Of a stretch of DNA of 64,000 bases, positions 23,964 through 52,133 are shown piece by piece. Source of the DNA: an uncultured Eisenbergiella sp. GTDB lineage: Bacteria > Bacillota > Clostridia > Lachnospirales > Lachnospiraceae. Position numbers and translations under genes: made by a program. Under the pieces are notes generated by a model, which saw only the letters and a list, made by a program, of their open reading frames with translations, was not told the origin of the DNA and searched no databases. Location of the stretch: positions 59,234 through 123,233 of the forward strand of contig CANQUI010000001.1 in NCBI GenBank assembly GCA_947626995.1, in the 5' to 3' direction. How positions within the stretch are numbered: position 1 is the first letter of the stretch; each line of letters starts with the position of its first letter.

Positions 23964-23971
23964 GGTATGGG

Positions 23972-25867: not shown

Positions 25868-27066
25868 AGGTATTGATCGTCAATAAATTCCTGCATCCCA
25901 ACGGCGGATCGGAAACCTACATTTTCGAATTGGGCAGACAGCTTGCGCGCATGGGCCATTCGGTGCAATATTTCGGGATGGAGCATGAGGGGCGTATCGT
26001 GGGCAACCGCATCGGCTGCTATACGGACGACATGGATTTTCATTCGGGGAAATGGGAAAAGCTTTTCTATCCGTTCCGGATCCTGTATTCCCGTCAGGCG
26101 TCGGCCCGGATGAAAAAAGTGCTTTCGGATTTTGATCCGGACGTGGTGCATCTGAATAATTTTAATTTTCAGCTCACGCCGTCGGTGATCTATGCGGTGC
26201 GCAAATACGAAAAACGCACCGGAAAAAAGATTCGGATCGTCTATACGGCTCACGACTATCAGTTGGTTTGTCCCAATCATCAGCTGTTGGTTCCCGGCAC
26301 GGGGGAGTTGTGCACGCGCTGTCTGGGAGGCAGGCAGTGGAACTGCGCCAAATACCGCTGCATCCACAATTCCCGGGTAAAGAGCCTGCTGGGGAGCCTG
26401 GAGGGGAGGCTGTACGAGCGGCTGAAAACATACCGTTATCTGGATGTGATCGTCTGCCCCAGCCGCTTTATGGAAGGAATGTTGCGGCAAAACAGCACGC
26501 TTTGCGGGCGGACGGTGGTGCTGCACAATTTTATCGGCGCCATCGAACCTCCTGTAGCCGACAAGAAAGATTATGTGTTGTATTTCGGACGGTATTCCCG
26601 GGAAAAGGGAATCGATACGCTGCTGGAGGCCTGCCGGCGGCTGCCCCACATTCCTTTTGTGTTTGCGGGGAAGGGGCCGTTGGAGGAGCAGGTGAATTCC
26701 ATGGAGAATATCGAAAACAAAGGATTTTTAAACGGCCCGGAATTATACGCCCTCATCGCCGGTGCCCGCTTCACCGTTTTTCCGTCCGAGTGGTATGAAA
26801 ACTGTCCGTTTTCGGTGATGGAGTCCCAGGTCTGCCGGACGCCGGTGATCGCCTCCCGTCTGGGCGGGACGCCGGAACTGCTTTTGGAAGAAAAAACCGG
26901 GGAATTTTTTGAAGCGGGGAACGCAGCGCAGCTGGCGGAACGCATCCAAAAGCTCTGGGAAGACCGAAAGAAGCTGGCGCGGTATACGGAAAACTGCCGG
27001 GCGGTTTCCTTTGCCGGGGCGCCGCAATACTGTGAAAAACTGCTGCAACTCTATCAGGAGGGATGA
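25864..27066 (+). CDS. GT4 family glycosyltransferase
   Basis: 400 residues, ATGA overlap with the GT26-GT4 gene. The N-terminus VNKFLHPNGGSETYIFELGRQL is the Gly-rich acceptor-domain motif and the C-terminus has YFGRYSREKGIDTLLEA and SEWYENCPFSVMESQVCRTPVI, the GT4 donor-site and E-x7-E regions. A central Cys-containing stretch (CPNHQLL, then CTRCLGG, then CAKYRCIHNS) is typical of one EPS GT4 subgroup and may bind a metal structurally. It is cytoplasmic. The donor sugar is unknown. Confidence 0.9.
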   Translation: MKVLIVNKFLHPNGGSETYIFELGRQLARMGHSVQYFGMEHEGRIVGNRIGCYTDDMDFHSGKWEKLFYPFRILYSRQASARMKKVLSDFDPDVVHLNNFNFQLTPSVIYAVRKYEKRTGKKIRIVYTAHDYQLVCPNHQLLVPGTGELCTRCLGGRQWNCAKYRCIHNSRVKSLLGSLEGRLYERLKTYRYLDVIVCPSRFMEGMLRQNSTLCGRTVVLHNFIGAIEPPVADKKDYVLYFGRYSREKGIDTLLEACRRLPHIPFVFAGKGPLEEQVNSMENIENKGFLNGPELYALIAGARFTVFPSEWYENCPFSVMESQVCRTPVIASRLGGTPELLLEEKTGEFFEAGNAAQLAERIQKLWEDRKKLARYTENCRAVSFAGAPQYCEKLLQLYQEG

Positions 27067-27068
27067 GA

Positions 27069-28076
27069 ATGGCAAGAAGAACGTTATACGGAACCGTCAT
27101 CGTGACGTATCGCTGCAATGCGCGCTGTAATATGTGCGACTGTTTTAAGGATCCTTCCCGGCCGGAAGAGGAGATCACGTTAGAGGAGATCAAAAAACTG
27201 CCGGAGATGGCCTTTACCAATATCACGGGAGGAGAGCCGTTCATCCGGCGGGACATCCCGGACATCGTGAGGGAACTTTATAAAAAATCGGACCGGATCG
27301 TGATCTCCACCAACGGATATTTTACGGACCGGATCATCGCGCTGTGCAAAGAGTTCCCGCAGGTGGGCATCCGGATCAGCATCGAGGGCCTGCAGGAGAC
27401 CAACGATAAGATCCGCGGGATCCCGGACGGCTTTCAAAGAGGATATCAGACGTTAAAGACGCTGGTGGAAATGGGACACCCGGACGTGGGCTTTGGGATG
27501 ACCGTACAGGACATGAACTGCGAGGATCTGGTGCCGCTGTATCATATCGCCAACGACATGGGGATGGAATTTGCCACGGCCGCGCTGCATAATTCGTTCT
27601 ATTTTCGAAAGACGGACAATCGCATCGAAAACAAAAGGAAGGTGGCCGAAAATTTTGAGAAACTGATCAACGAGCTGCTGGCCAGTTCTTCCCCCAAAAA
27701 GTGGTTCCGCGCCTACTTTAATCACGGACTGATCAATTATATTTACGGGAACAAACGGCTGCTTCCCTGCGATATGTCCCAAAACGCCTTTTTTATCGAT
27801 CCGTTCTGCGACGTGATTCCCTGCAACGGCATGGAGAAAAAAGCGGTTATGGGCAATCTGCGCAGGCAAAGCTGGGAGGAGCTGTGGAATTCCAGGCAGG
27901 CGCAAAAGGTGCGCGAATGTACCAAAAACTGCGACCGGAACTGCTGGATGATCGGCAGCGTGTCCCCGGCCATGCACAAGTATATCTGGGTGCCGGGCTG
28001 GTGGGTGATCCGGCATAAGTTTTTCAAGGGAGGGAAATATTCATTAAATGAAAATGATTTCATACGGGAAAAATAA
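27069..28076 (+). CDS. radical SAM protein with C-terminal cysteine-rich (SPASM-like) region
   Basis: 335 residues from ATG 27069; the ribosome site AGGAGGG sits six bases upstream of it and directly abuts the alternative ATG 27063. C16-x3-C20-x2-C23 (RCNARCNMC) is the [4Fe-4S]/SAM triad, followed by NITGGEPFIRRDI and ISTNGYF. The C-terminal part has more Cys residues (LPCDM, FCDVIPCNG, CTKNCDRNCW), as in SPASM/Twitch proteins that hold extra Fe-S clusters. Its place between a GT4 and a GtrII-like transferase suggests sugar modification (epimerisation, dehydration or C-methyl chemistry), but peptide modification cannot be excluded. Strict anaerobiosis fits. Confidence 0.88.
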   Translation: MARRTLYGTVIVTYRCNARCNMCDCFKDPSRPEEEITLEEIKKLPEMAFTNITGGEPFIRRDIPDIVRELYKKSDRIVISTNGYFTDRIIALCKEFPQVGIRISIEGLQETNDKIRGIPDGFQRGYQTLKTLVEMGHPDVGFGMTVQDMNCEDLVPLYHIANDMGMEFATAALHNSFYFRKTDNRIENKRKVAENFEKLINELLASSSPKKWFRAYFNHGLINYIYGNKRLLPCDMSQNAFFIDPFCDVIPCNGMEKKAVMGNLRRQSWEELWNSRQAQKVRECTKNCDRNCWMIGSVSPAMHKYIWVPGWWVIRHKFFKGGKYSLNENDFIREK

Positions 28077-29689
28077 GCTCCGTCTTATGGGGGAAGAACT
28101 GGGAAGGTATCAAAAGGAATTGGGGATCCTGTTTGTCGTCGCTTTTGTCGTTTATTTTCCTTTCTGGGGAGGACAGCTGAATAATGCGGACGGTTTTTTA
28201 TATGGAGTGATCCGTCATGGACAGAATTATGGCTGGGAGGATGCGCAGGGAAGATTTTTGCTTCGCTGGCTGGATGAATGGAGGGACGGATTTATCATCC
28301 CGCCCATGATAATTGGGATCAGCATCCTCTTGCTTTTGATGTCGGCTGTGCTTATCTGGCATATTTTTTCCTGTGAAAGTACCGCAGAACGTATTCTGGT
28401 CGGGGCTTTTGTGATTTTCTCACCTTCTGTGATGAACACATTTACTTACTATTACTGTGCGGATTCCTATATGCTGTCTTATTTTCTGGCGGTACTTGCG
28501 GCGGCGTTGCTGATTCGAGGGGGGGGGTAAAATCTCGCTGGTCATCTCCGTGCTTTTGCTGATCTGCTCTATGAGCATTTATCAGGCTTATTTTGTGGTG
28601 ACGGTAATCCTGTGCCTCATATGGACGATTCGGGAGATTTTATCAAATAGATGGGAATGGAAAGCGCTGGCGGGGAGGATCCTTCGACAGGTTTTTGGAG
28701 GAATTGCCGCATGTCTTGGGTATTTATTCTTGTTGTTTTTGCTGGAACGGACAGGCTATCTTGGACTTACAAAAACCCGGGGAATGAACAGGATGTTTCA
28801 GAATATGTTTCTATGGCTGCTGCAATCCGTAAAAGACGCCTATCGTGTATTTTATGAATACTATTTTACGGATGTCCTGATCTGCAATTCCTGGAGAAGG
28901 AGAGACTTTTTTAATGCGATTGTCCTGTTGCTGATCCTTTTTTCACTGGGGATCCTTTTCAAAGAAAGGAAAACACACTCTCTTGTCAATTTGGGGCTTC
29001 TGGTCTGTCTGGTGTCGTTTTTCCCGATCTCTCTGACGCTGATCGTGATTCTCGCTCCGGGAGCGTCCGTTTATGCGGAAACGGGCATGTTGATGCTGAC
29101 GGGAATGAATTATTTCTATATTTTTTTGCTGTTGCTTATGTCCGCAATCAAAAAGAAATCAGCCGGCTTTCGGTTGATCCAAACAGCCGCCGTAGGAGTA
29201 TGTTCGGTGCTGCTTTTGATTCAGATCGTTTTTGCGGGCGTTTTTGCGAAGTCGATTCAGATGGAGCAGACAAAGGTGCAGATGTTGGCGTATCAGATAG
29301 AAAACAGGATAGAAACTCTGGACGATTATGCGTCAGGACAGACGGTGCTTGTAACGGGGAGACCACAATGGGGCAATTATCCCGCAACGCAGGATCGGAC
29401 CGGCAATATTACAAAGGGTATGATCAGCGCCTATACGCTCACTTTTGGCGCGGATGAGCAGGTGAGCGCAGGTTGGATCAGTCTGTTTGCGTATTTTTGC
29501 GGAGTACGATATGAAGAATGTAATGCGGAGGACAGAAATTGCATTTTGGCCTCCAAGGAATTCGCCCGGATGAACGATTTCCCTGCAAAGGATTCTGTGA
29601 AAAGGATAGGGAATGTAATCGTAGTCAGGCTCAGTCCTGGGGTGGATACGATCCAGCGAAAGCTGAAGGAAGCGGAAAACGGAGTATGA
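28048..29689 (+). CDS. GtrII-like membrane glucosyltransferase, split by a G9 tract (probable phase-OFF)
   Basis: Two ORFs, 28048-28530 (160 residues) and the open frame around 28550-29689, are the two halves of one protein. The first frame runs into nine G and stops at once at TAA 28528. Removing one G (G8) joins them into one 546-residue protein reading LLIRGGGKISLVISVLLL across the join. The N-terminal half (NNADGFLYGVIRHG, RFLLRWLDEWRDG, SPSVMNTFTYYYCADSYMLS) and SIYQAYFVV after the join match GtrII-type membrane glucosyltransferases, which use Und-P-sugar to modify exported glycan. ATG 28048 overlaps the radical SAM gene; AGGGAGGG lies 13 bases upstream. Slippage is the likely switch; a plain mutation or a base-calling error is the alternative. 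Confidence 0.8.
28519..28527 (+). repeat. G9 homopolymer, putative slippage (phase-variation) tract
   Basis: Nine consecutive G bases inside the coding region of the GtrII-like gene. Read in the upstream frame they give Gly-Gly-Gly followed by TAA; with eight G the gene is open to 29689. This is one of only two G runs above six that I found in the window. Confidence 0.9.
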
Positions 29690-29690
29690 C

Positions 29691-30782
29691 ATGAAGGTTC
29701 TGATGCTGGTAAACTGGAAAATGGAATATAAAGACGCTGTGCCGGAGGACAAACAGCCGCCGGATTATTATGTGAAAGGCGTTCCCTACTGGTTTTTCCG
29801 CTATTTTAAAGACACAAAGGACTGGGACGTGGACGTGGTGGACTGCCGTTCGTTCGGGGCGCTGGAGCGCCTGGAACAAGAGAAGATCCGGTTTTATATC
29901 TGGCAGACGATAAAATGCCTGCCGCGGTTGAAGCGCTATGACCTTGTCCTTTCCCACGGCATGCAAAGCGGCATCGTCCTGTGTTTGTGGCGGCGTCTGT
30001 TTGGCAAAGGAACGTACCGGCATGTGGTCTTTGATATCGGGGCGTTTAACAGCGCCCGAGAATCGGGGGGCTCCTTGCGCCTCATGCAGTTTGCGGGCAA
30101 ATCCCTGGACGGCGTGATCTACCACACCAGAGAGCAGCGGGGCTATTATGAGAGATGTCATCCGTGGCTTTTGGATAAGATCCGGTATATTCCCTTTGGG
30201 ACGGATACGGATTTTTTTACGCCGGGCGCAGAAAAGAAAGCGGAGGGAGCGCCCTATATACTTTGTCTTGGTCATAACAAGCGGGACTGGGAGACGCTGC
30301 TTGCCGCCTACGCGCTCCTGCGCAAAAGATGGGACCACATACAGCGGCTGCCCGACTTAAAGCTGATCGGAAAAGGAAAGATCGACGCTGCCATAGACGG
30401 CGTGACTGCGCTGCCGTCCGTACCGGTGCGGCGTATGATGGAAGAAATGGAAAACGCCTGTTTTTGCGTCCTGCCCCTGCAGTCCTTTCCCTACTCTTTC
30501 GGCCAGATGACGCTTTTGCAGCAGATGCTTTTCCAAAAGGCGGTGATTGCCGCGGATGTGCCTTCCCTGCGGGACTATGTGCAGGACGGACAGGACGCCC
30601 TGTTATACGAACCGCAGAACGCGGCCATGCTGGCGGAACAAATGGAACGGCTCATTCTGGATCCAACGCTGTGCCAACAGATCGGCGGCAGGGCGGCGCA
30701 ATCGGTGCGCACCAAGTGGAACGAGCGGCGGATGGCCGGGGAAATACAGGAATATCTGACGACGGTATTGCAGTCGTCGTAA
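29691..30782 (+). CDS. GT4-like glycosyltransferase
   Basis: 363 residues, starting one base after the stop of the split GtrII-like gene. GT-B layout: VLSHGMQSGIVLCLW and VVFDIGAFNSARE in the N-terminal half, ILCLGHNKRDWETLLAAYALL and FPYSFGQMTLLQQMLFQKAVI in the C-terminal half. The usual E-x7-E glutamates are replaced (SFGQMTLLQQ), a pattern of one GT4 subgroup, so the mechanism or donor contact differs from the other GT4 proteins here. It is cytoplasmic and has no membrane helix. Donor unknown. Confidence 0.8.
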   Translation: MKVLMLVNWKMEYKDAVPEDKQPPDYYVKGVPYWFFRYFKDTKDWDVDVVDCRSFGALERLEQEKIRFYIWQTIKCLPRLKRYDLVLSHGMQSGIVLCLWRRLFGKGTYRHVVFDIGAFNSARESGGSLRLMQFAGKSLDGVIYHTREQRGYYERCHPWLLDKIRYIPFGTDTDFFTPGAEKKAEGAPYILCLGHNKRDWETLLAAYALLRKRWDHIQRLPDLKLIGKGKIDAAIDGVTALPSVPVRRMMEEMENACFCVLPLQSFPYSFGQMTLLQQMLFQKAVIAADVPSLRDYVQDGQDALLYEPQNAAMLAEQMERLILDPTLCQQIGGRAAQSVRTKWNERRMAGEIQEYLTTVLQSS

Positions 30783-30812
30783 CTACCGACGGTATCGGAG
30801 GGGGAGGACAGG

Positions 30813-31850
30813 ATGGAAGACCCTATCGTAAGCGTGATCGTGCCGGTCTACAATGTGGAAAAATATCTGGAAAGATGTATCCGTTCCCTGCAGAAACAGA
30901 CGCTCAAACAGATCGAGATCCTGCTCATTGACGACGGATCCACGGACGGCAGTGGACAACTTTGCGATACGCTGGCAAAGACGGACGAGAGGATCCATGT
31001 GCGGCATAAAAAAAACGCGGGACAGGGGCTTGCCAGAAACGACGGGCTTTTCGCCGCGAAAGGCGATTATGTGCTGTTTGTGGACTCGGACGATTATATT
31101 GAACCGGATACCTGCCTTCGCCTGTCCCGGGTGATGCGGGAGCAGAAGGCGGATCTTTGCTGCTTTGGCTACCAGATCGAGACGCCGGAAGGAGAGCTGT
31201 TTTATCGGGCGCGTCTGACGGCGGACTGCTATGAGGGCGAAGCGGTGCGCAGGCGCTTTGCGCTGCATTTTTTCGGAGACGATCCAAAAGACGAAAAGCT
31301 GCGGGGCGTCTCGGCCTGCATGACCATGTTTCGCCGCAGCATCATTCAAGAGCACGGAATCCGGTTTCCCTCGGAACGGGAGTTTTTAAGCGAGGACACC
31401 ATTTTCAATCTGGATTTTTGCCTGTACGCGCAAAAAGCCGTGGTGCTGCCGTCCTATTTTTACCATTACTGCCAGAATCCGGATTCTTTTTCCCATGCGT
31501 ACCGCCCGGATCGCTTCGCGCTTACCGTGGTGCTTTGCCGGACGCTGTTTTCGTACGCTGCGCGCTACGGAGTGGAGGAAGAAACCAAAAACCGCATCCG
31601 CATGTCGCTGTGGGTCAGCCTGATGGAGTGTATCAAACAGGAGACGAAAAGGATCGGGCAGGTCCCTTTAAAGACCGTCCGGCAGAGAGTGAAAGAATTC
31701 TGCGACGATCCGTTGACTCAGGATGCGCTGAACGGATTGTCCGCCGGGGAATTTCCGGCAAAACAGAGGATGTTCCGGATGCTGCTGCGCCGCCGGATGT
31801 TTTTGGCGGTGCTGTTTGCCGCATGGCTTCGTAACCGACAGGGATTATAA
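30813..31850 (+). CDS. GT2 family glycosyltransferase
   Basis: 345 residues. VSVIVPVYNVEKYLERCIRS, LLIDDGSTDGSGQLCD, KKNAGQGLARNDGL and the DxD site LFVDSDDYI are textbook GT2. GAGGGGGAGGACAGG immediately upstream supplies a strong ribosome site. The C-terminal part has FLSEDTIFNLDFCLYAQ and a helical tail, usual for capsule GT2 proteins. It lies between a GT4 and another GT2. Sugar specificity is not deducible. Confidence 0.9.
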   Translation: MEDPIVSVIVPVYNVEKYLERCIRSLQKQTLKQIEILLIDDGSTDGSGQLCDTLAKTDERIHVRHKKNAGQGLARNDGLFAAKGDYVLFVDSDDYIEPDTCLRLSRVMREQKADLCCFGYQIETPEGELFYRARLTADCYEGEAVRRRFALHFFGDDPKDEKLRGVSACMTMFRRSIIQEHGIRFPSEREFLSEDTIFNLDFCLYAQKAVVLPSYFYHYCQNPDSFSHAYRPDRFALTVVLCRTLFSYAARYGVEEETKNRIRMSLWVSLMECIKQETKRIGQVPLKTVRQRVKEFCDDPLTQDALNGLSAGEFPAKQRMFRMLLRRRMFLAVLFAAWLRNRQGL

Positions 31851-31863
31851 GAAAGGACCGAAC

Positions 31864-32877
31864 ATGGGAAAAGAACCTTTGATCAGTGTGATCATGTCGG
31901 TTTATAACGACAGGGATTATATCCGACAGGCGCTGGACAGCCTGTTTGCCCAGACTGAACAGGACTTTGAGATCATCCTTGTGGACGACTGTTCCACGGA
32001 CGATACGGTTTCGATCATAGAGACATATCAGGACGAGCGGATCAGGCTGTACCGGAATGAAAAAAACCTCGGACTGACCCGAAACCTAAACCGAGCGTTA
32101 CAGCTGGCCCGGGGACAGTTTATCGCCCGGATGGACGGGGACGACATCTGCAGGCCCCGGCGCTTTGAAAGGCAGCTTGCCTTTCTGCGCGCCAATCCGT
32201 CGCTGATGCTGATCAGCTGCCGGACCCACATGTTTGGACAGCAGGATCTGATCTCGGATATATCCGGGAGCGGAGAAAAACTCAAGGCGATGATGCTGGT
32301 CCGTCCGGTGCTGGCCCATCCGGGCTTTATGATGCGGGCGGAGCTGATCCGCCGGGAGGGATTCTCCTATGATGAGACCTTTCGAAGCGCCCAGGATTAT
32401 GACTTCGCGGCCAGGGTAGCGCAGAAATTTCCCATCGGCGTGACGCAGGAGGTTCTGTTGGACTACCGCGTACACAAAAAGCAGGTGTCTTGTCAGGACG
32501 GCGAGAAACAGTTTTCCAACGCGGACCGGGTCAGGCAGATGCAGCTGGAGCGGCTGGGCGCAGCGCTGACTCCTTTGCAGTGGGCGGCCTATCGGGACTG
32601 GGCCGGGGAAAAAAGAAACTGCGCAAAGGACGTCTATCGGCAGGCGGCCTCCGTAATTGATACGCTGATGGCCGCCAATTCGCGGACAGGCCTTTACGAT
32701 CCGGACACGCTGGAGACGGAGCTGAAAAAACTGCTGTTTCAGTGGATGCTGCGAAGCCGCTCCTGGTCCGTCTGCCTGCAGGCCGTCACGGTATGCGGCG
32801 TTTCCGGACGGAACCTGAAGCTGCTTACGGAAAAGGCGGGGCAGATCCTGTCGCATAAGCGGAAAGGGGAAGCATAA
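31864..32877 (+). CDS. GT2 family glycosyltransferase
   Basis: 337 residues from ATG 31864, AAAGGA six bases upstream; the track start at 31816 is within the previous gene. ISVIMSVYNDRDYIRQALDS, ILVDDCSTDDTVSII, LTRNLNRALQLARGQFIARMDGDD give the full GT2 signature, with the DxD as DGDD. SAQDYDFAARVAQ is the conserved acceptor-side motif. Cytoplasmic. One base separates it from the ATP-grasp gene, so the two are coupled. Confidence 0.9.
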   Translation: MGKEPLISVIMSVYNDRDYIRQALDSLFAQTEQDFEIILVDDCSTDDTVSIIETYQDERIRLYRNEKNLGLTRNLNRALQLARGQFIARMDGDDICRPRRFERQLAFLRANPSLMLISCRTHMFGQQDLISDISGSGEKLKAMMLVRPVLAHPGFMMRAELIRREGFSYDETFRSAQDYDFAARVAQKFPIGVTQEVLLDYRVHKKQVSCQDGEKQFSNADRVRQMQLERLGAALTPLQWAAYRDWAGEKRNCAKDVYRQAASVIDTLMAANSRTGLYDPDTLETELKKLLFQWMLRSRSWSVCLQAVTVCGVSGRNLKLLTEKAGQILSHKRKGEA

Positions 32878-32878
32878 G

Positions 32879-33766
32879 ATGGAGAAGGAACCAATCTCGC
32901 TGAAACGAAGACTATATCGAAAACTCTGCCGGCTCTTTGGGAAACGGATGCCGGACCGGCTGTATCTGAAGCTGCTTTATCAGGTCCGCATGGGGAAACC
33001 CCTGCATCTGGATCCGCCGGAGGATTTTAACGAAAAGCTGCATTGGCTGAAGCTGTATGACCGAAACCCGGCCTATTCCAAAATGGCGGACAAGTACGAG
33101 GTCAGAAGCTTTGTGAAGGAAAAACTGGGAGAAGAATATCTGATCCCGCTTCTGGGCGTATGGGACGACGTGGACGAAATCGACTTTAACGCTCTGCCGG
33201 ATCAGTTTGTGCTCAAATGTACCCACGATTCCGCCAGCGTCTGTATCTGTAAGGACAAAAAGACGTTTGACCGCAGGGCGGTATCGGACCGGCTCAGACA
33301 GGCCATGGGCAGAAATTATTTTTATGCCGCCCGGGAATTCCCGTATCGGGACATAACCCCGAGAATCCTTGCGGAGACCTACATGGTGGATGAATCCGGC
33401 ACGGAGCTGAAGGATTACAAGGTATATACCTTTCACGGAGAACCCTACCTGATTCAGGTGGACTTTGACCGGTTTGAGAACCACAGGAGGAATCTCTATA
33501 CGACGGACTGGCAGTTTATTGATGAAACCATCGAATATCCCAAGGATCCTACGGTCCAAATTCCCAGGCCCCAGAGGCTTTCCGAAATGCTGGAATGTGC
33601 GAAAAAGCTGGCGGAGGGGACGCGCAGCCTGCGCACGGATTTTTACAGTATCAACGGGAAGATTTATTTTGGAGAGATCACCTTTTATCAGGAGGCCGGA
33701 TTCGCCCACTTTGAACATCAGGCTTACGCAAAGAAACTGGGAGAGATGATCCGGCTGCAGGATTGA
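32879..33766 (+). CDS. TupA-like ATP-grasp family protein
   Basis: 295 residues of the TupA-like ATP-grasp family seen in teichuronic acid and capsule clusters. Markers are FNEKLHWLKLYDR, MADKYEVRSFVKEKLG, FVLKCTHDSASVCICKDK, LKDYKVYTFHGEPYLIQVD and FYSINGKIYFGEITFY. ATP-grasp enzymes form C-N or C-O acyl bonds through an acyl phosphate, so this protein may attach an amino acid or other carboxylate to the glycan, although some members are annotated as glycosyltransferases. Last gene of this operon; a 498-base gene-free stretch follows. Family placement is solid, the reaction is inferred. Confidence 0.85.
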   Translation: MEKEPISLKRRLYRKLCRLFGKRMPDRLYLKLLYQVRMGKPLHLDPPEDFNEKLHWLKLYDRNPAYSKMADKYEVRSFVKEKLGEEYLIPLLGVWDDVDEIDFNALPDQFVLKCTHDSASVCICKDKKTFDRRAVSDRLRQAMGRNYFYAAREFPYRDITPRILAETYMVDESGTELKDYKVYTFHGEPYLIQVDFDRFENHRRNLYTTDWQFIDETIEYPKDPTVQIPRPQRLSEMLECAKKLAEGTRSLRTDFYSINGKIYFGEITFYQEAGFAHFEHQAYAKKLGEMIRLQD

Positions 33767-33837
33767 GTGCACAGAATTACAGAAATCGTTTCATGGCGAT
33801 AATTTGACGGTCATAGAGTTCTAAAGTATCGGTTTTT

Positions 33838-33990
33838 TGTTATCTTGTATTGAAAAATCATGGTTTCCTTGGTATATTTAACTATGATTTTTAAGTTGCA
33901 AAGAAGATTTCGGAATCCTTTTGCAGATAACCCTACAAATGGGATCATATTACAAAGCGGGAAAAAAATGAAGAAGAAATCGTGAATAAT
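33838..33990 (+). pseudogene. remnant 1 of a GT-C paralog promoter and leader
   Basis: This stretch of the 498-base gap (33767-34264) resembles the region ahead of the intact GT-C gene at 49794. tattgaaaaatc, then ttccttg, then tatatttaactatgattt and gaagaag occur in the same order and spacing, and a ggaaaaaaatgaagaagaaa segment matches the first codons (MEKKMRKKP). It then diverges into a frame with stops. I read it as the promoter plus a few codons left after deletion of a copy. The rest of the gap, outside the two remnants, holds no gene I can support. Confidence 0.6.
33850..33878 (+). promoter_or_regulatory. promoter, TTGAAA-17-TATATT
   Basis: TTGAAA, 17 bases, TATATT, followed by taactatgattt. 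Boxes, spacing and downstream bases are almost the same at 49703-49731 ahead of the intact GT-C paralog. It may now drive the heptose operon from about 390 bases upstream. Confidence 0.7.
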
Positions 33991-34048
33991 TTCACCAAAA
34001 TCACTTTTTTTGGGGGTTGAGAAATGTTTAGAATTTATGCAATAAGCC

Positions 34049-34077
34049 TTGAAATTAGTATTTTATTTTGGTATGTT
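34049..34077 (+). promoter_or_regulatory. promoter, TTGAAA-17-TATGTT
   Basis: Second promoter-like copy in the gap, with the same -35 and 17-base spacer as the one at 33850 and a slightly weaker -10. It is the nearest recognisable promoter to the heptose operon, about 190 bases ahead of its first ATG. Confidence 0.6.
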
Positions 34078-34235
34078 TATACCTGAACCGTACGGCTTTT
34101 TATTTTTGTGGCATGGGAAAGGGATACCATAACTAAGGTGAAGAAACGGGGATCCGATTTCTATTCGTCCTGCTTTTATTGGACGCCGGTTATTTTGTTT
34201 CGCGGACAAAACCCGACTATCTGGAATAAAAGCAC
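34049..34235 (+). pseudogene. remnant 2 of a GT-C paralog promoter and N-terminus
   Basis: A second copy. TTGAAA-17-TATGTT (34049-34077) precedes DNA that from about 34137 aligns with the N-terminal helix of the 49794 gene. The clearest stretch, tcgcggacaaaacc followed by tatctggaata, is nearly identical to the bases coding for SRTKPVYLEY there. Similarity ends at about 34235, 30 bases before the dehydratase ATG. No open frame survives. Confidence 0.65.
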
Positions 34236-34264
34236 AAAAAACAAGAGACAGGAGCAAAAGTAGA

Positions 34265-35242
34265 ATGAAAAAAGTACTCATTACAGGAATCACCGGATTC
34301 GCGGGAAGTCATTTGACAGACTATCTTTTGGAAAATACCGACTACGAGATCCATGGAATAAAACGGATGAACTCCAATCTGAGAAACATCCGTCACGTGC
34401 TGGACAGGATCAGCCTGCACGACGGGGATCTGCTGGACGAGAGCAGCCTGATCAACATCCTGCAAAACGTGCAGCCGGATCAGATCTATCATCTGGGCGC
34501 ATTGAGCTGGGTTACGCCTTCCTGGACCATGCCTGCGGTATATATGCAGACAAACGCCATTGGCACCATCAATCTGTTTGAGGCGATGCGTGTGACGGGA
34601 TGCCATGCACGGGTGCTGACCAGCGCCACGCCGGAAGAATTCGGGGATGTTCCTCCCGAGATGATCCCGATTACGGAGGAGACAAGGATTGCGCCCATCA
34701 ATCCCTATGCCGCCAGCAAGGCGGCGCAGGATATGGTCTGCATCACTTATCATGCCAGCTACGGGATGGATATTGTCAGGACCAGAGCGTTTAATCATGA
34801 AGGGCCGCGCCGGGATATCCACGGCGCCATCGCATCGTTCGCATATCAGATCGCCCGGATCGAAAACGGGCTGCAGGAGCCGGTCATCAAGGTAGGAAAC
34901 CTTGGCGCCACCCGCAATTTTACAGATGTAAGAGATACGGTCCGCGCCTACTATCTGGCGATGGAAAAGGGCGTGAGCGGTGAATTGTATGTGATCGGTA
35001 CGGATCAGATTCATACGATGAAAGAAATGCTGGATATGCTGGTGGCCTCTTCCGAGAGGGCGGCCGACATCCGGATCGAAGTGGATCCCGCCCGGGTAAG
35101 ACCGACGGAACTGATGACTTTTATCGGCGATTACAGCAAGTTCAGGTCCCTGACGGGCTGGGAGCGTCGGTACAGCCTGGAGGAGACATTAGAGAGCGTA
35201 CTGAACTATTGGCGCGATTTTGTCAAAAAAGGGATGTATTAG
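34265..35242 (+). CDS. GDP-sugar 4,6-dehydratase-like SDR (GMD family; possibly GDP-heptose)
   Basis: 325 residues. Rossmann motif TGITGFAGSHL, catalytic pair NPYAASK (Y-x3-K), and TSATPEEFGDVP where dehydratases carry the Thr-x-Glu catalytic site. RTRAFNHEGPRR and VGNLGATRNFTDVRD are typical of the GMD/RMD group. It is shorter than usual GMD (about 370) and lacks its long C-terminal part. Because the next genes make GDP-D-glycero-D-manno-heptose, GDP-heptose is a likely substrate, as for DmhA/WcbK; GDP-mannose is the alternative, which would lead to fucose or rhamnose. The start at ATG 34265 has CAGGAG upstream. First gene of the heptose module. Confidence 0.82.
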   Translation: MKKVLITGITGFAGSHLTDYLLENTDYEIHGIKRMNSNLRNIRHVLDRISLHDGDLLDESSLINILQNVQPDQIYHLGALSWVTPSWTMPAVYMQTNAIGTINLFEAMRVTGCHARVLTSATPEEFGDVPPEMIPITEETRIAPINPYAASKAAQDMVCITYHASYGMDIVRTRAFNHEGPRRDIHGAIASFAYQIARIENGLQEPVIKVGNLGATRNFTDVRDTVRAYYLAMEKGVSGELYVIGTDQIHTMKEMLDMLVASSERAADIRIEVDPARVRPTELMTFIGDYSKFRSLTGWERRYSLEETLESVLNYWRDFVKKGMY

Positions 35243-35266
35243 ACAATGGACCCGGGAGGACGGCGC

Positions 35267-36181
35267 ATGAAAATACTGATCACAGGAGCAGGGGGATTTA
35301 TAGGCAAAAGACTGGCCAAAAGGCTGTCGGAAATACCGGGGATGGAAATTTACGGCCTTTCCCGGGAAGGAACAAATCTGTTTCCGGGCGTTGTGCCTGT
35401 CCGGTGCGATATACTGGATGCCGACGGAGTGGAACGGACGTTTCAAAACTGCCGGTTTGACAGAGTCATTCACCTTGCCGCCATTACGGAACATAAGGAA
35501 GTCGTAGACCGGAAGCTAAAAACGTTGGAAATCAATTTGCAGGGGACCATGAACCTTCTGGACAGTTTTAACAGACACTGTACGGGAAGCCAGTTCCTCT
35601 ATGCGTCCACGGGAAAGGTTTACGGAGAAACCGATGAAATGCCCATATCGGAACGGGCGCTGGTCAATCCCACGACCGTTCTGGGAAAGGCAAAGCGGAT
35701 TACGGAAAATATCGTGGATTTTTATGCGGTGCCAGCCAACCGATATTTAATTTGCCGGATCTTCAATATCTATGGGGAATTTCAGAAAAGGAATTTCGTG
35801 GTGCCGACCATTCTGGATCAGTTGGACAGTCCGGCGATCCACCTCGGGAACCTGCATGACAAGCGGGATTATCTGTATATTGACGATCTGATCGCTGCGT
35901 TTCTTGCCTGCATCCGTTCTCCTTTCAAATTTGAGAACGTGGACTATGTAAATATCGGAAGCGGGACGGCTGTCAGCGTGGCCGATATTCTGAAAGAAAT
36001 GGAGACGCTTCTGGGAAGAAAGCTGCAGGTGGAAACGGATGCTTCCCGGTTTCGTAAGGATGAGACATCGGTGGAGATCTGCGACCATGGCAGGCTCACC
36101 GAACGGACGGGATGGGAACCGGAGTTTTCGCTGCGGGAAGGGATGGAGAGAACGCTGAAAAAAGAGGGGCGTCTTCCATGA
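35267..36181 (+). CDS. NAD-dependent epimerase/reductase-like SDR lacking the catalytic Tyr
   Basis: 304 residues from ATG 35267, GGGAGGA six bases upstream; ATG 35246 is the longer option. Rossmann motif TGAGGFIGKRLAKRL, then HLAAITEHKEVVD, YASTGKVYGE and IFNIYGEFQKRNFV follow the extended-SDR pattern. The segment that should read Y-G-x-S-K-x-x-x-E reads LGKAKRITE, so the catalytic tyrosine is Leu (codon ctg) while Lys and Glu are kept. It could use another acid, act with the upstream dehydratase, or be a structural partner. By position it would be the reductase or epimerase completing a GDP-6-deoxy sugar. Confidence 0.75.
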   Translation: MKILITGAGGFIGKRLAKRLSEIPGMEIYGLSREGTNLFPGVVPVRCDILDADGVERTFQNCRFDRVIHLAAITEHKEVVDRKLKTLEINLQGTMNLLDSFNRHCTGSQFLYASTGKVYGETDEMPISERALVNPTTVLGKAKRITENIVDFYAVPANRYLICRIFNIYGEFQKRNFVVPTILDQLDSPAIHLGNLHDKRDYLYIDDLIAAFLACIRSPFKFENVDYVNIGSGTAVSVADILKEMETLLGRKLQVETDASRFRKDETSVEICDHGRLTERTGWEPEFSLREGMERTLKKEGRLP

Positions 36182-36212
36182 CGTTTGGGATGCAGTGTGA
36201 AAAGGCGAAAAG

Positions 36213-38249
36213 ATGACCAAAAAGACAGGGATCCTGTGTATCCTGATTCTGATTCTGTCAGGCATCGGATATGGAGCAGCATGGATCAGGCCGGCCTATC
36301 TGGAATATCAGACGATAGGCGGGCAGGAGGGAGCAATCGTTTCTGCGGAAGACGGGAAACAAGAAAATGTCGTGTCATTTCGGATGCCGTATGATATTTT
36401 ATGCGGCGTAGTGACGGATTCGGATAACGGCGCCCAATCGTATACGATTGTAGAGGCAAAGACCCAAAAGACCCTTTTGAAAAGCAGGGCAGAGAATGGG
36501 GTTTTTGTGCAAAGGCTTACCCATAACGTGCCGGTAAAGAAGAATGAAATCTATGAACTGCATCTGGAGGCAGGCAAAGCTCCAAAACCGTCCGGGGTGG
36601 GGATCGGGGGCGGGCCGCTCCTTCGGATCTACGGGGGCGACCGCAGCCGGTGGTGGTTTGCATGGACGACTTTGCTTGCCGTCTTGCTGTTTGCCTTTGG
36701 ATTCTGCCGGATCCGACTGATGAAGAAGGGGCGGGATTGGAGACAGAGCCGGGTTTTTTGCAGTCTGCTTCTTTTCTTTCTTATTTTATCCCTTTGGTCC
36801 GTATTTGCCTTACAGGACCGCCATGGCGACGAAACCGCCGTGATTATGGAAGGCATGCTTCTGGCAAAGGGGAAGGTGCTGTATCGGGACTGCATTGAAC
36901 AGCATATGCCGTTGGCCTCCTATTTGTGCGCGGTCTTTGCCGGATTGGGGGCGGAAACAATTTTGCAGTTTCGTCTTTCCTGGTATCTGTTGTTATCCGC
37001 GATCTGGGGATGCCTGTACTGGCGTCATGGGGGCCGTTTCAAAAAAAGGATATTTTTTCTTCCCCTCCTGCATGCCCTGTTCGTTCCTTCCGGCGTGGTC
37101 CCCTATGGGTACGTGTTACTGGGAGACGGCATATTTGAGATCAGTATGATCGCTTTTATTCTGGAATTTCTCCGGTACCTGGAGGACCAAAGGCTGGGCT
37201 GGGGACGTTGCGCTATTTTCTCGGTCTGTTTCCTGGGATGTTTCGGTACGGAGTTTGTCAGCCTTTACGCCCTGTTTGGCCTTTTCCTGTTCGCGCTTTA
37301 TAAAGAGGCGGGATATTGGAAAGGGACAGGCCCCGGGATCCGAAAGGTGATCGGGCGATATGGCAGGCTGGCGATCTGCTTTTTGATACCGGCCGCTGCC
37401 GTTGCCGCATATTTTATGTCTCATCACGCCCTCCACGATCTGTATGATCAAACCTACCGGTTTAATACGGAAGTTTATTCCGCGTATAATGGAGGACTCG
37501 GGATCAATAAGATCACGCCGTTTTTTTACGGGATTCAAAACTGCCTCAAATTTGCGGTCATGCAGATCCGATCTTTTTTGAACCCGTACGGTCTGATGCG
37601 TCTGCTGATATTCGCGGGGGCTGCGTTCTCCGTATTTTCGCTGATAAAGAGCAAAAGATATGAGACCGCGACCTGTCTTGGTTTGTGTATTTGCCTGTGC
37701 GCCATCCGATTGATCAACAATAAGAATGATCTTTCTTATCACGGGGCCTGCGCGTGGGGGCTTATGATTCTTGCTGCGGCGCTTTATTGGAAGCCGTTTC
37801 CGGGAAGAAGCGGAAGGATTTTGACCGCCTGTGTTCTGCTTCTGGCGGTTGGGATTTATACGGGATCCTTTTATAAGGCGCTGTGCAACCCGGAACCGAC
37901 GGTCTCGGACCTTGAGCACGCGGTGGTGGAACGGACGGAGGAAGGAGAAGCCGTTTTTATGGACGCTTTTGATACCCTCTCCCCCTACCTGCTCTATCGG
38001 AACCGGTATCCGGCCAACCGGCTGCTTTGGATGCTGCCGTGGTACCTGGACCGGTATGAACAGACGGCGATCGACGATTTAAACGCGCATCAGCCCGGAC
38101 TTGTTATTTTTGATGAATCGAGAAGAATATGGGGATCCCCGGTGCGTTTCGATGCACTGCCGGATGCGCTGCGGGAGAATTATACCCAACTTTCCGATGA
38201 TGAGGCGGATGGCTGGAAGTATCGGGTCTGGGTGCGAAACGCTCCATGA
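36213..38249 (+). CDS. GT-C fold membrane glycosyltransferase, paralog 1
   Basis: 678 residues. One N-terminal helix, then an outer segment of about 110 residues (RPAYLEYQTIGG, SFRMPYDILCGV, NVPVKKNEIYELHL) ending at RIYGGDRSRWWFAW, then a multi-helix domain. The outer loop RHGDETAVIMEGMLLAKGKVLYRDCIEQHMP looks like the GT-C acidic motif followed by a YRD..hP lipid-phosphate site. The tail LLYRNRYPANRLLWMLPWYLDRYEQ is strongly shared with the proteins at 47474 and 49794. It should transfer a sugar from Und-P to the exported glycan. No G tract is present here. AAAGGCGAAAAG precedes ATG 36213. Confidence 0.75.
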   Translation: MTKKTGILCILILILSGIGYGAAWIRPAYLEYQTIGGQEGAIVSAEDGKQENVVSFRMPYDILCGVVTDSDNGAQSYTIVEAKTQKTLLKSRAENGVFVQRLTHNVPVKKNEIYELHLEAGKAPKPSGVGIGGGPLLRIYGGDRSRWWFAWTTLLAVLLFAFGFCRIRLMKKGRDWRQSRVFCSLLLFFLILSLWSVFALQDRHGDETAVIMEGMLLAKGKVLYRDCIEQHMPLASYLCAVFAGLGAETILQFRLSWYLLLSAIWGCLYWRHGGRFKKRIFFLPLLHALFVPSGVVPYGYVLLGDGIFEISMIAFILEFLRYLEDQRLGWGRCAIFSVCFLGCFGTEFVSLYALFGLFLFALYKEAGYWKGTGPGIRKVIGRYGRLAICFLIPAAAVAAYFMSHHALHDLYDQTYRFNTEVYSAYNGGLGINKITPFFYGIQNCLKFAVMQIRSFLNPYGLMRLLIFAGAAFSVFSLIKSKRYETATCLGLCICLCAIRLINNKNDLSYHGACAWGLMILAAALYWKPFPGRSGRILTACVLLLAVGIYTGSFYKALCNPEPTVSDLEHAVVERTEEGEAVFMDAFDTLSPYLLYRNRYPANRLLWMLPWYLDRYEQTAIDDLNAHQPGLVIFDESRRIWGSPVRFDALPDALRENYTQLSDDEADGWKYRVWVRNAP

Positions 38250-38252
38250 CCG

Positions 38253-38286
38253 GATGCCTGTCCCGGTTCCGGCATCAAACATTTTT
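38253..38286 (+). terminator. possible weak terminator or attenuator hairpin
   Basis: GATGCC, a 12-base loop and GGCATC form a six-base-pair stem between the GT-C gene and gmhA, followed by aaac and five T. The stem is short and the U-tract interrupted, so only partial termination is plausible. Confidence 0.3.
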
Positions 38287-38315
38287 CGAAGGAAGAGAAA
38301 GGAATATTCACCGAT

Positions 38316-38903
38316 ATGGAATATCAGGAGATGATCCGAAAATATATCGCAGATGAGATGGATGTGCTCAGCAGGCTGGATGTGGAGGCGATCAACGCCG
38401 TGATGCGGGAGTTAAAAGGCGCGTTTGACCGCGGCAGCACCGTTTACGTATTCGGCAACGGCGGCAGCAGCGCCACGGCCAGCCATTATCAGAATGATTT
38501 CAATAAAGGGATCTCGGAGCATACGGAGCAAAAATTCCGTTTCTGCTGTCTGAACGACAATATCGCCACGGTCATGGCGGTTGCCAACGATATCGGGTTT
38601 GAAGAGGTGTTTCGTTTTCAGCTGCGCGGGCGGTTAAAGCCGGGAGATCTGGTGTTGGCAATTTCCGGAAGCGGCAACAGCAAAAATGTGCTCAATGCGG
38701 CGGAATATGCCAAAGAGCAGGGAAATACCGTCGTGGCGATCACCGGATATGACGGCGGCAGGCTGGATGAACTGGCGGACTGTCATTTGCATGCCCCCGT
38801 TATGAGCATGCAGATCACGGAAGATATTCATATGATCTTTGATCATCTGATGATGAGTATATTCTGTAAAACCATGTGTCAGATCGATCATTTGAAAAAA
38901 TAG
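38316..38903 (+). CDS. gmhA: sedoheptulose-7-phosphate isomerase (GmhA-like SIS protein)
   Basis: 195 residues. FGNGGSSATASHYQNDF and LAISGSGNSKNVLNAAEYAKEQG are the two phosphosugar-binding SIS motifs, and QITEDIHMIFDHLMMSIF is the C-terminal helix with the conserved Glu/His of GmhA. It converts sedoheptulose 7-phosphate to D-glycero-D-manno-heptose 7-phosphate in the cytoplasm. Length matches GmhA (about 190). The downstream HddA-like kinase and the HddC-GmhB fusion complete the route to GDP-heptose, which supports this over other SIS functions. Confidence 0.9.
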   Translation: MEYQEMIRKYIADEMDVLSRLDVEAINAVMRELKGAFDRGSTVYVFGNGGSSATASHYQNDFNKGISEHTEQKFRFCCLNDNIATVMAVANDIGFEEVFRFQLRGRLKPGDLVLAISGSGNSKNVLNAAEYAKEQGNTVVAITGYDGGRLDELADCHLHAPVMSMQITEDIHMIFDHLMMSIFCKTMCQIDHLKK

Positions 38904-38951
38904 ACGAAAGACGAAGACGGGAGATATTGTCTTTCCTGCTGTGTGGCAGCG

Positions 38952-38976
38952 CATATTTACCTATGATTATGGCCAG
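38952..38976 (+). promoter_or_regulatory. degenerate copy of the shared promoter box
   Basis: In the 151-base gap after gmhA, catatttacctatgatta resembles the tatatttaactatgatt found at the GT-C promoters. An upstream TTGTCT is 19 bases from CATATT, so promoter strength is doubtful. It may mark where a promoter/leader unit once lay ahead of the GT2 gene. Confidence 0.35.
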
Positions 38977-39054
38977 TCGGTTTTTTATCGTTAATTTGCG
39001 GGAAAATAATGATTGCGTCAGCACAATGCCAAATGAGAAAGGATGAGGGAAATC

Positions 39055-39798
39055 ATGGGAAAAAGCATTTCTATCGTGATGTTGGTTTATAACGAAGCAG
39101 AGATCATTGAGAAAGTCATACGCGAGTATTATGAAAAGGTTTTTGTAAAGCTGGAGGATGCGGAGTTTATCGTGGCGGAAGACGGCAGCCGGGACGGCAC
39201 AAAGGAGATTCTGGCCCGTCTGGCGCAGGAACTGGATATCCGTCTGGTCAGCGGCGAGGAACGCAAAGGATACGTAAAAGCGTACCAGGATTCCATCCGT
39301 CTGCCCCGGAAGGATTATATTTTTTTCACCGATTCCAGCGGGAAGCATCTGCCGGAGGATTTCTGGGAGATGTATCCGTTTACGGAAACGTATGACGTGA
39401 TTTCCGGGTATAAAGTCAAACGTAAGGATCCGTTTTACCGGATTGTGATGACGCGGGTGTTCAATACATTGGTCAATTTGTATTTCGGGACAAAGTTTAA
39501 GGATATTGACAGCGGCTTTAAGCTGATCCGGCGTGAAGCGATGCTGGATATCCTGCAGGACGACTGGATCTGTACGGATCTGATCTCGTTTGAAACGATG
39601 GTACGGCTTTCCTATCGCGGGTATCGGATTAAGGAGGTTCCGGTGCGGCACCGTCCCCGGGAAAACGGTCCGTCCAGAGGACTGCCTTTGAAAAAGATTC
39701 CCAAAGTGATTCGGATGGTGCTGTCCAATTTCGCCGCCGTCAAGAAAGACGCCAGAATCTGCGCGGCCAAAAGCAGAAAACAGGGGGACGAGAAATAA
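39055..39798 (+). CDS. GT2 dolichol-phosphate mannosyltransferase-like protein (polyprenyl-P sugar synthase)
   Basis: 247 residues from ATG 39055 (GAGGGA four bases upstream); ATG 39043 is four codons earlier. SIVMLVYNEAEIIEKVIREYY, FIVAEDGSRDGTKEIL, and FKDIDSGFKLIRREAMLDIL are DPM1-type motifs. The usual DxD region reads FFTDSSGKH. No C-terminal membrane helices, as in soluble DPM1 enzymes. Such proteins load a sugar onto undecaprenyl phosphate, supplying donors for GT-C transferases like those encoded around it. It sits between gmhA and hddA with a TAATG overlap, so the sugar may be a heptose; this is inference. Confidence 0.82.
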   Translation: MGKSISIVMLVYNEAEIIEKVIREYYEKVFVKLEDAEFIVAEDGSRDGTKEILARLAQELDIRLVSGEERKGYVKAYQDSIRLPRKDYIFFTDSSGKHLPEDFWEMYPFTETYDVISGYKVKRKDPFYRIVMTRVFNTLVNLYFGTKFKDIDSGFKLIRREAMLDILQDDWICTDLISFETMVRLSYRGYRIKEVPVRHRPRENGPSRGLPLKKIPKVIRMVLSNFAAVKKDARICAAKSRKQGDEK

Positions 39799-40790
39799 TG
39801 ATTATTACCAGAACCCCGTTTCGCATCAGCTTCGCGGGCGGCGGCAGCGATCTCCCGTCTTTTTACCGGCGGCACGAGGGCTGCGTACTGTCCACTACGA
39901 TCAACAAGTATATGTATGTGATGATCCATCCTACTTTTAACCGGCTGGATACCGTGGTAAAATACAACCAGACCGAGACCGTGCAGGACATCCGCATGAT
40001 ACGCCACCCTATCGCCCGACAGCTTTTGCTGGACCATAAAGTATGTGGGGTCGAGATCGTCAGCACCGCCGACATCCCTTCCGGTACGGGCCTGTCCACC
40101 TCCAGCGCGTATACGGTGGGCCTGATCCACGCGCTGCATGCGTTTTCGGGCAAGTTCTGTTCGCAGGAGCGTATCGCCCGGGAGGCCTGCGAACTGGAAA
40201 TTGAAAAGCTGGGAGAGCCCATCGGCAAGCAGGATCAGTACGGAACGGCCGTGGGCGGCATAAAGTTCATCCGTTTCTGTCAGGACGATTCCGTGGAAGT
40301 CGATCCGCTCCCCGTTTCCCGCAGGACGTTAGAGGAGCTTGACAACAATCTGCTGCTGTTTTATACGGGAATCACCCATTCGGCAGGAGAGATACTCAGA
40401 GAGCAAAACGCCAACCTGACAGGCGAACAGGAAAAGTTCCGGAATCTCGTCCGCATGACGGAGCTGGCGTACGAGATGCGGGACGCGCTGCTGCGGGCGG
40501 ATCTGGACGGATTCGGCCATATCCTGAATGAAAACTGGCTGTTAAAACGCCGGCTGGCCAGTCAGATCTCCAATGATGTGATCGAGAAATACTACAGGCT
40601 GGCCCTGGATAACGGGGCGCTGGGCGGAAAGCTGCTGGGCGCGGGCGGCGGCGGGTTTTTGCTGTTTTATTGCCCGAAGGAGAAGCAGAAACGCCTGCGC
40701 AGCGCGCTGAGCGATCTGGTGGAGCTGCCCTTTCACATGGAGACCAGCGGCACGAAGGTAATCTATATCGGAGAAAAGGATTGGGACTGA
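39798..40790 (+). CDS. hddA: D-glycero-alpha-D-manno-heptose 7-phosphate kinase (HddA-like GHMP kinase)
   Basis: 330 residues. ITRTPFRISFAGGGSDLPSFY at the start, the GHMP ATP-binding motif IPSGTGLSTSSAYTVGLIHAL near residues 95-115, and LGAGGGGFLLFY near the C-terminus are the three kinase motifs; the N-terminal GGGSDLP is typical of the HddA/fucokinase-like branch. It phosphorylates heptose 7-phosphate at O-1 to the alpha-1,7-bisphosphate, the form leading to GDP-heptose. The start overlaps the GT2 stop (TAATG) and its stop overlaps the next gene. The context of gmhA and hddC-gmhB makes the substrate assignment strong. Confidence 0.9.
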   Translation: MIITRTPFRISFAGGGSDLPSFYRRHEGCVLSTTINKYMYVMIHPTFNRLDTVVKYNQTETVQDIRMIRHPIARQLLLDHKVCGVEIVSTADIPSGTGLSTSSAYTVGLIHALHAFSGKFCSQERIAREACELEIEKLGEPIGKQDQYGTAVGGIKFIRFCQDDSVEVDPLPVSRRTLEELDNNLLLFYTGITHSAGEILREQNANLTGEQEKFRNLVRMTELAYEMRDALLRADLDGFGHILNENWLLKRRLASQISNDVIEKYYRLALDNGALGGKLLGAGGGGFLLFYCPKEKQKRLRSALSDLVELPFHMETSGTKVIYIGEKDWD

Positions 40791-42124
40791 TGGAGAAAAA
40801 GAAAGAGATACTGATTTTGGGCGCCGGCCTTTCCGGCATTACCACAGCGTATTTTTTACAGGACGATCCGTCGATCGGCTCGATCACGCTTCTGGAAAAG
40901 GAAAGCGTTCCCGGGGGGCTTTGCCGCAGCATCCGAAAGGACGGATACCTTTACGATATCGGCCCGCACATCCTGTTCAGCAAGGATAAGGAAATGCTGG
41001 AGCTGATGCTGAGCGTGCTGGACGAAGGGCGCAACGATCTGGTGCGCAGCAACCAGATCCTGTACCAGGGACGGCGGATCCAGTATCCGTTTGAAAACGA
41101 CCTGTCCAAGCTCCCGGAGAAGGATTTGAAATATTGCATCAACGCCTTTAATCATAATCCCTACGAGGCGTACGAAGCGGACAATATGATCCAGTTCTTC
41201 TTAAAGACCTTTGGCGAGGGCATCACCAATACCTATCTGCGTCCCTATAATGAAAAGATCTGGAAATATGATCCGGCTTTTATGAACACCAGTATGGTGG
41301 AGCGCATCCCCAAGCCGACACAGGAAGAGATCCGGCGCAGCGCCGCCGGAGAGACCGTGCAGGGGTATCTGCATCAGCTGTATTTTTCCTATCCGTCCCA
41401 CGGCGGGATCCAGGCGGTTCCGGACGGCTTTTTGCGGCGCCTGAAGCCCGAAAAGTGCAGACTGGTATGCAATGCCTGCGTGGAATCGGTGGAACCGGCG
41501 GGAGAACGGTATCGTGTGACGGCGGGCGGACAGGTTTACAGTGCCGATGAGATCATTTCGACCATTCCGGTGCAGGCGCTGACGGAGGCGTACGCTTTGG
41601 CGACGCAGGAACTGAAAGAACATGTGGACAAGCTGCGTTATAATTCGATTCTCATCAGTTTCGTGCGGCTGCCCTATGACCTTTGCGGCGAGAACTTTGC
41701 GTTTATGATTCCGGATAAAAACGTCATCTTCCACCGTATCTCCAAGATGGATTTCCTGGGCGAGGCTTATCACCATGCGCCGCAGGAGGCGACCTATATG
41801 ATCGAGGTGACCTACCGGAAAAACGATCAGGTAGACCGTCTGGACGACGCAGCGTTCCGGGATGCGATCTGTCAGGGACTGATAGAGATCGGTTTTGCGA
41901 GGCAAAAGGAGGATGTGGAATTTATTGATATCACCCGGTATCCGTACGCCTATGTGATTTATGATCTTTCCCATACCGACAATATGGCTTTTATACGCAG
42001 CTTTTATGAAAGCTGCGGGATCCGGCTGAACGGGCGTTTCGGCAACTTTGAATACTGGAATATGGACAGGATCCTGCGGGAAAGCCTGACGCTTTGCCAG
42101 AAGATTACACGGGAGGAATCGTAA
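40790..42124 (+). CDS. FAD-dependent amine-oxidase/UDP-galactopyranose-mutase-like protein
   Basis: 444 residues from ATG 40790 (TGATG overlap with hddA; GGAGAAAAGG upstream); the ORF-track start is inside hddA. LILGAGLSGITTAYFLQ is the FAD-binding GxGxxG motif, followed by LLEKESVPGGLCRSIRKDGYLYDIGPHILF. IISTIPVQALTEAY and the closing FGNFEYWNMD are also seen in protoporphyrinogen-oxidase-like proteins of glycan loci. Possible roles are ring contraction of a nucleotide sugar, as in UDP-Gal mutase, or oxidation/reduction of a sugar. UGM hallmark residues are not clear enough to call. No membrane helix. Confidence 0.8.
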   Translation: MEKKKEILILGAGLSGITTAYFLQDDPSIGSITLLEKESVPGGLCRSIRKDGYLYDIGPHILFSKDKEMLELMLSVLDEGRNDLVRSNQILYQGRRIQYPFENDLSKLPEKDLKYCINAFNHNPYEAYEADNMIQFFLKTFGEGITNTYLRPYNEKIWKYDPAFMNTSMVERIPKPTQEEIRRSAAGETVQGYLHQLYFSYPSHGGIQAVPDGFLRRLKPEKCRLVCNACVESVEPAGERYRVTAGGQVYSADEIISTIPVQALTEAYALATQELKEHVDKLRYNSILISFVRLPYDLCGENFAFMIPDKNVIFHRISKMDFLGEAYHHAPQEATYMIEVTYRKNDQVDRLDDAAFRDAICQGLIEIGFARQKEDVEFIDITRYPYAYVIYDLSHTDNMAFIRSFYESCGIRLNGRFGNFEYWNMDRILRESLTLCQKITREES

Positions 42125-42125
42125 A

Positions 42126-43589: not shown

Positions 43590-43591
43590 AA

Positions 43592-45094: not shown

Positions 45095-45127
45095 CGGTCG
45101 CCATGCAAAATAAAAAGGAGGCAGAAA

Positions 45128-46075: not shown

Positions 46076-46082
46076 ACAGAAG

Positions 46083-47387: not shown

Positions 47388-47403
47388 TATTTCAAACCTT
47401 CGG

Positions 47404-47409
47404 TATATT
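47404..47409 (+). promoter_or_regulatory. degenerate copy of the GT-C promoter (-10 TATATT)
   Basis: ccttcggtatatttaacaataattt downstream of hddC-gmhB resembles ccttggtatatttaactatgattt at 33871. The -10 TATATT is kept, but the six bases 17 upstream (cgtctg) are a poor -35. It lies about 65 bases ahead of ATG 47474. Confidence 0.45.
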
Positions 47410-47473
47410 TAACAATAATTTCAAGTCTTCATATTTTGAGCATTGTTGGGAAAGGTACAAAAATAGAGAGAAA

Positions 47474-49640: not shown

Positions 49641-49702
49641 GGTTTTCTCTGCAAAAGGAAGGGTCGGTATCCGTATAGCAGGAAGAAAATTGGTTTTCTG
49701 TA

Positions 49703-49731: not shown

Positions 49732-49793
49732 TAACTATGATTTTGAAATTGCGAAGAAGGGCACGGAACCAGTTTATGAAGGATAATACAAAA

Positions 49794-52093: not shown

Positions 52094-52133
52094 GCGGCAA
52101 ATTCGAGGATTTGACAATGAAACAGACTATTTT

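Follow-up and report, generated by a model that had tools for sequence, protein, structure and literature searches.

Directly ahead of a cluster of heptose-type genes in an uncultured Eisenbergiella sp. lies a gap in which sequences resembling the starts of glycosyltransferase-type genes stand without the genes themselves, and this raises the question of how they came to be there and what became of the rest. The gap spans 498 bp (33767-34264) of the window, by which we mean the whole stretch of 64,000 nucleotides that was analyzed, and lies between the end of a TupA-like gene (33766) and the start of an SDR gene (34265); its GC content is 35% compared with 51-53% in the genes on either side. 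From the DNA letters, an initial sequence-only reading had placed here, at 33838-34235, two successive copies of the promoter and N-terminal codons of the gene that starts at 49794, an extent that is right within about 20 bp. The features of the gap and its left border are as follows.

32879-33766, forward strand: TupA-like ATP-grasp gene (PF14305, E 4e-74), the last left-side gene shared with the congener G009, whose protein is 76% identical
33836-33985, forward strand: relic A, the start of a GT-C-type gene from promoter through 5' leader to the first codons (blastn and alignment to the 49794 gene)
33850-33880, forward strand: relic A promoter, TTGAAA-17-TATATT with TG extension (promoter scan and alignment)
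33986-34048, forward strand: A/T-rich spacer, 30% GC, to which none of the segments tried proved related
34049-34254, forward strand: relic B, whole extent including its promoter-like motif
34049-34079, forward strand: relic B promoter-like motif, TTGAAA-17-TATGTT with TG extension (pattern match)
34140-34254, forward strand: relic B N-terminal codons, ..LLLLDAGYFVSRTKPDYLE-TAA (TAA at 34227-34229), no intact start in the same frame (blastn and peptide)

Both halves of the gap are related to the 49794 gene. In local alignments with 49641-50000, 33767-34010 scored 130 (300 shuffles: mean 26.6, sd 4.6, maximum 49) and 34011-34264 scored 89 (mean 26.2, sd 4.2, maximum 43), and three blastn matches within the window are collinear between the gap and the region of the 49794 gene. 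These scores far exceed those of the shuffles, and the homology is therefore real and no effect of base composition; together with the blastn E values, they rule out a chance likeness of A/T-rich DNA.

Relic A aligns overall with 49690-49823 and keeps about 16 codons. Its first part, 33836-33906, corresponds to 49690-49759 (87% over 71 bp, E 1.3e-18) and includes a promoter identical in 28 of 31 bases to the promoter at 49703, while 33947-33984 corresponds to 49783-49822 (80% over 40 bp, E 0.002). The start codon is gone: the counterpart of ATG 49794 is CGG, followed by a 2-base gap. From a second ATG (33968) the relic reads AAG AAG AAA TCG TGA, against AGG AAG AAA CCG TGG in the intact gene, and thus ends at an in-frame TGA (33983-33985). 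The relic could be read as a leader-peptide ORF (MIFKLQRRFRNPF..KKKS-stop), a possible ORF for which a separate explanation is superfluous because the same frame of the intact gene continues into protein. Past 33985, no further gene-body homology was detected (33986-34045 against 49800-49960, P 0.74). Relic A shows little likeness to the 47390-47620 leader of another GT-C-type gene, 47474, except in the -10 region. A widespread leader motif was also considered and rejected: the pattern CCTTN{2,3}TATATTTAACNATNATTT has 13 matches in the genome contigs, in unrelated-looking surroundings, and tblastn revealed no GT-C relative encoded at any of them.

In relic B, it is the N-terminal codons that are recognizable. 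Overall it aligns with 49811-49930, and the expected match to the SRTKPVYLEY codons is borne out by 34167-34231, which corresponds to 49845-49909 (77% over 65 bp, E 2.8e-8) and ends in ..SRTKPDYLE-stop. The frame from 34146 reads TGIRFLFVLLLLDAGYFVSRTKPDYLE followed by a stop, and about 27 codons are kept. Aligned with the intact N-termini, this peptide reaches a score of 70 with the 49794 protein, 52 with that of the 36213 gene (ungapped, full stretch) and 48 with that of 47474, and none of 5,000 shuffles attains any of these values. The 15 differences from 49845-49909 are distributed 3, 5 and 7 over codon positions 1, 2 and 3, compared with 243, 149 and 354 when the 47474 and 49794 genes are aligned over their intact parts; with 15 differences, this pattern is only suggestive. 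The upstream half of relic B is a different matter, and here the claim of two promoter-plus-N-terminus copies holds for all of A and for the codons of B, but less securely for the promoter half of B, which aligns no better than shuffles with A or with the 49703 promoter (P 0.3 and 0.8). Its candidate promoter is a TTGAAA-17-TGnTATnTT motif at 34049, 199 bp past that of relic A. The fixed pattern TTGAAA-N14-TGnTATATTTA, derived from relic A and the 49703 promoter alone, fits this site with one mismatch, which was equalled by 1 of 20,000 shuffles of the insert. The leader behind it is weakly similar to the leader of the 47474 gene (P about 0.01), so that the comparison with that leader, also proposed at the outset, yields little for A beyond the -10 region and a weak likeness for B. 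The promoter half of B is thus a putative one, the support for which consists of a short motif and the weak 47474-leader match.

The limits of the two alignments make it conceivable that A and B are parts of one decayed 5' end, with A continued by B and an insertion of about 155 bp between them. A matches 49690-49823 and B 49811-49930, with little overlap, and the promoter half of B fails to align with A. Yet the interrupting stretch carries the promoter-like motif near the expected distance from the N-terminal codons and a leader weakly like that of 47474, and no further copy of it, as would point to a mobile element, was found in the assembly; the search for such a copy covered 33986-34166 and ruled out a mobile element there. 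We consider a single interrupted relic a distinctly less probable but still credible alternative. Because B has its own promoter-like motif and some likeness to the 47474 leader, we prefer, without certainty, two distinct relics, and two lost copies, as the sequence-only reading had it, fit the decayed 5' ends better than one.

That neither stretch has a gene body was confirmed, as no homology to the body of a GT-C gene was found within the gap. Their above-chance likeness to the start of an intact family member, their disrupted frames and their missing bodies place A and B among 5' pseudogene fragments of GT-C-type genes. No structured RNA family matched the window at the Rfam gathering threshold, which rules out a known structured RNA or riboswitch in the gap, and a tRNA search found no tRNA, which rules out a tRNA-borne integration site. 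A search of the literature returned nothing on point.

Where, then, are the bodies? Searched with the 49794 protein, the assembly yielded exactly three copies (36213, 47474 and 49794), all in the block of genes that follows the relics.

34265-36181, forward strand: two SDR genes (GDP-mannose-4,6-dehydratase-like and epimerase/reductase-like; PF16363/PF01370; NCBIfam matches below curated cut-offs), the first genes after the relics
36213-38249, forward strand: intact GT-C-type paralog, 678 aa, third gene past the relics (52% to the 49794 protein, E 1e-215)
38316-47387, forward strand: heptose-type genes, among them gmhA-like 38316, hddA-like 39798 and hddC/gmhB-like fusion 46083
47474-49640, forward strand: GT-C-type gene whose front and body lie in different frames, with a 9-G run at 47525-47533 (57% to the 49794 protein)
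49690-51956, forward strand: intact GT-C-type gene (ATG 49794), whose promoter and leader are the match of relic A
52064-52095, forward strand: terminator-like hairpin, 8-pair stem (52064-52086) followed by CTTTTTT, which closes the module

The label GT-C is a working one. The predicted order of elements in the protein (N-terminal membrane helix, strand-rich region, many helices and mixed C-terminal region) fits polytopic membrane glycosyltransferases of the GT-C type in a low-confidence model (mean pLDDT 42); unlike those enzymes, the family has no Pfam (at 0.001), NCBIfam or PDB sequence match. Heptose likewise denotes NCBIfam matches to gmhA, hddA and hddC/gmhB, all under the curated equivalog cut-offs. 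The best functional NCBIfam matches of 38316, 39798, 46083 and 34265 are those of GDP-heptose/6-deoxyheptose clusters (GmhA, HddA, HddC, GmhB and a Gmd-like dehydratase), but because they lie below those cut-offs, the sugar product is putative. Among the same genes, 42126-43589 and 43592-45094 are adjacent and mutually related (stretches of 67% and 70% DNA identity), with no Pfam match.

The number of copies bears on the proposal that two complete GT-C genes stood here until homologous recombination between their leaders removed or relocated them. The leader homology is real, and the 47474 and 49794 genes show that such genes stand in tandem and in the same orientation. A crossover between leaders, however, deletes everything between them and leaves one hybrid; no single hybrid leader was found at the junction, where two partial 5' ends remain, and so the two leaders would need other events, either a minimum of two deletions that ended elsewhere or a deletion combined with an insertion. 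Nor does the assembly hold a fourth or fifth copy to which a body could have moved, and the corresponding site of a syntenic congener lacks a GT-C gene. Loss or movement through the leaders is therefore improbable. The intact paralog at 36213-38249 in the downstream operon, absent from the sequence-only reading, sits behind the relic promoters; its own N-terminus is complete, and it is not just the body that A or B lost.

The expectation that relatives carry a GT-C gene at this site was disappointed. The family occurs in none of 12 congeners, and no related locus was confirmed in the genome contigs; in a wider search, G351 and G724 each yielded one full-length relative, and G878 and G967 yielded partial ones, none with leader homology, and the neighbors of the G351 copy resemble unrelated genes. 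No intact counterpart at the gap site was thus found in a relative, which would have been a supporting rather than a strictly defining mark of a pseudogene fragment, and its absence leaves the sequence match of the relics standing.

The congener G009 is syntenic with the flanks. Window 22400-33750 corresponds to approximately positions 7990-17830 of its stretch L084, with the order of two adjacent genes swapped, and the next match, 23 bases on, is to window 55134-57889 at 90%, followed by 53115-55135 and 57887-61463. In its stretch L085, the TupA-like ORF extends to 858, and a homolog of the 55149 gene (Pfam GT11) follows as the next ORF from 868, within 10 bp. By tblastn, the genes of 22365-33766 and 52308-61499 have counterparts in G009 that are 58-96% identical, except the GtrII-type gene 28048-29689, and the G009 stretch read has no orthologs of 34265-51956, with distant SDR matches at 26-28% only. 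At the site of the gap, G009 has neither a relic nor a GT-C gene. Because the flanks are shared and 34265-51956 is absent, the limits of the block lie at about 33767 and 51957-52307, with relics and GT-C genes both part of a variable module that was gained or lost as a unit. By this alignment of gene orders, the relics form the left edge of a variable module of 18.5 kb (from 33767 to about 52300) with heptose-type genes and three surviving GT-C-type paralogs; at its right end lies a promoter-like site at 52269, and no direct repeats longer than 9 bp were found at both edges. In the right flank, segments 53115-55135 and 55134-57889 are swapped in order relative to G009, and L085 (G009 C2:69000-88900) carries homologs of 55149-61499 behind its TupA-like gene, mostly at 89-96% protein identity. 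Left-flank identity to G009 is mostly 62-92%, below that of the right-side genes, which suggests that the two halves may have been exchanged separately.

Two genes of this region contain runs of nine G, of which the assembly has four in all. The run at 28519-28527 lies inside a GtrII-type glucosyltransferase gene (28048-29689), whose halves match PF14264 in consecutive parts of the profile and which is missing entirely from G009; the run at 47525-47533 lies inside the 47474 gene, between the heptose genes and 49794. In both cases, the reading frame shifts by one base across the run, which would fit either phase-variable switching or an assembly fault.

Altogether, we think it probable that two GT-C-type genes once began in the gap and left their 5' ends there as scars, their bodies having been cut away during assembly of the module and their promoters kept as its leading promoters. 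In this model, the two genes would have stood in tandem on the same strand as the operon. While GT-C genes were being combined with heptose-type genes into the module, A and B would have been severed from the bodies that followed them and the SDR genes joined behind the surviving promoters, which would have been retained as the leading promoters of the module. This order of events, and gain of the module rather than its loss, which is drawn from comparison with one congener, are what we infer from the present arrangement. Alternatively, the leaders may have been duplicated alone, without bodies, since no piece of either body remains. Remnants and truncated glycosyltransferase-type genes are found at the borders of exchanged blocks in surface-polysaccharide clusters such as those for O-antigen and capsule. 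The relics resemble these in their position; unlike the usual remnants, they are tandem 5' ends with promoters whose bodies are gone.

Three promoter-like sites lie in the gap region compared with 1.7 expected, and the relic A promoter is the best of them (10/12). No terminator-like site was found between it and 34265. As the best site with no intervening terminator, it may serve the module, and from their sequence and placement the relic promoters may drive the heptose module today. One could go further and see the gap as a working regulatory leader, in which two promoters and untranslated leaders were copied from GT-C genes and selected to control the heptose operon. In A, conservation is highest (87%) in the promoter core and early leader, in front of interrupted codons, and both motifs retain hexamers, 17-bp spacing and TG. 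The well-kept part of A is, however, equally expected of a fairly recent copy, the difference between 87% and 77% is small, no Rfam family matched at the gathering threshold, and this explanation overlaps that of severed genes, where promoters are likewise kept. We regard it as the least probable of those weighed here.

Relic A and the leader at 49690 form a pair of direct repeats, separated by 15.9 kb, that flank the heptose genes and two of the three GT-C genes, making deletion by recombination between them conceivable. We speculate, while considering it unlikely, that the leaders are kept as tandem promoters of the 18.5-kb module and act as a reusable docking site. If so, rare recombination between A and the 49690 leader could remove the greater part of the module, after which a single intact GT-C gene would follow the same promoter. 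Ultimately, the relics are ordinary gene turnover in a fast-changing polysaccharide cluster: they mark the left border of a species-variable sugar module and offer a simple case of promoters outliving the genes they once served.
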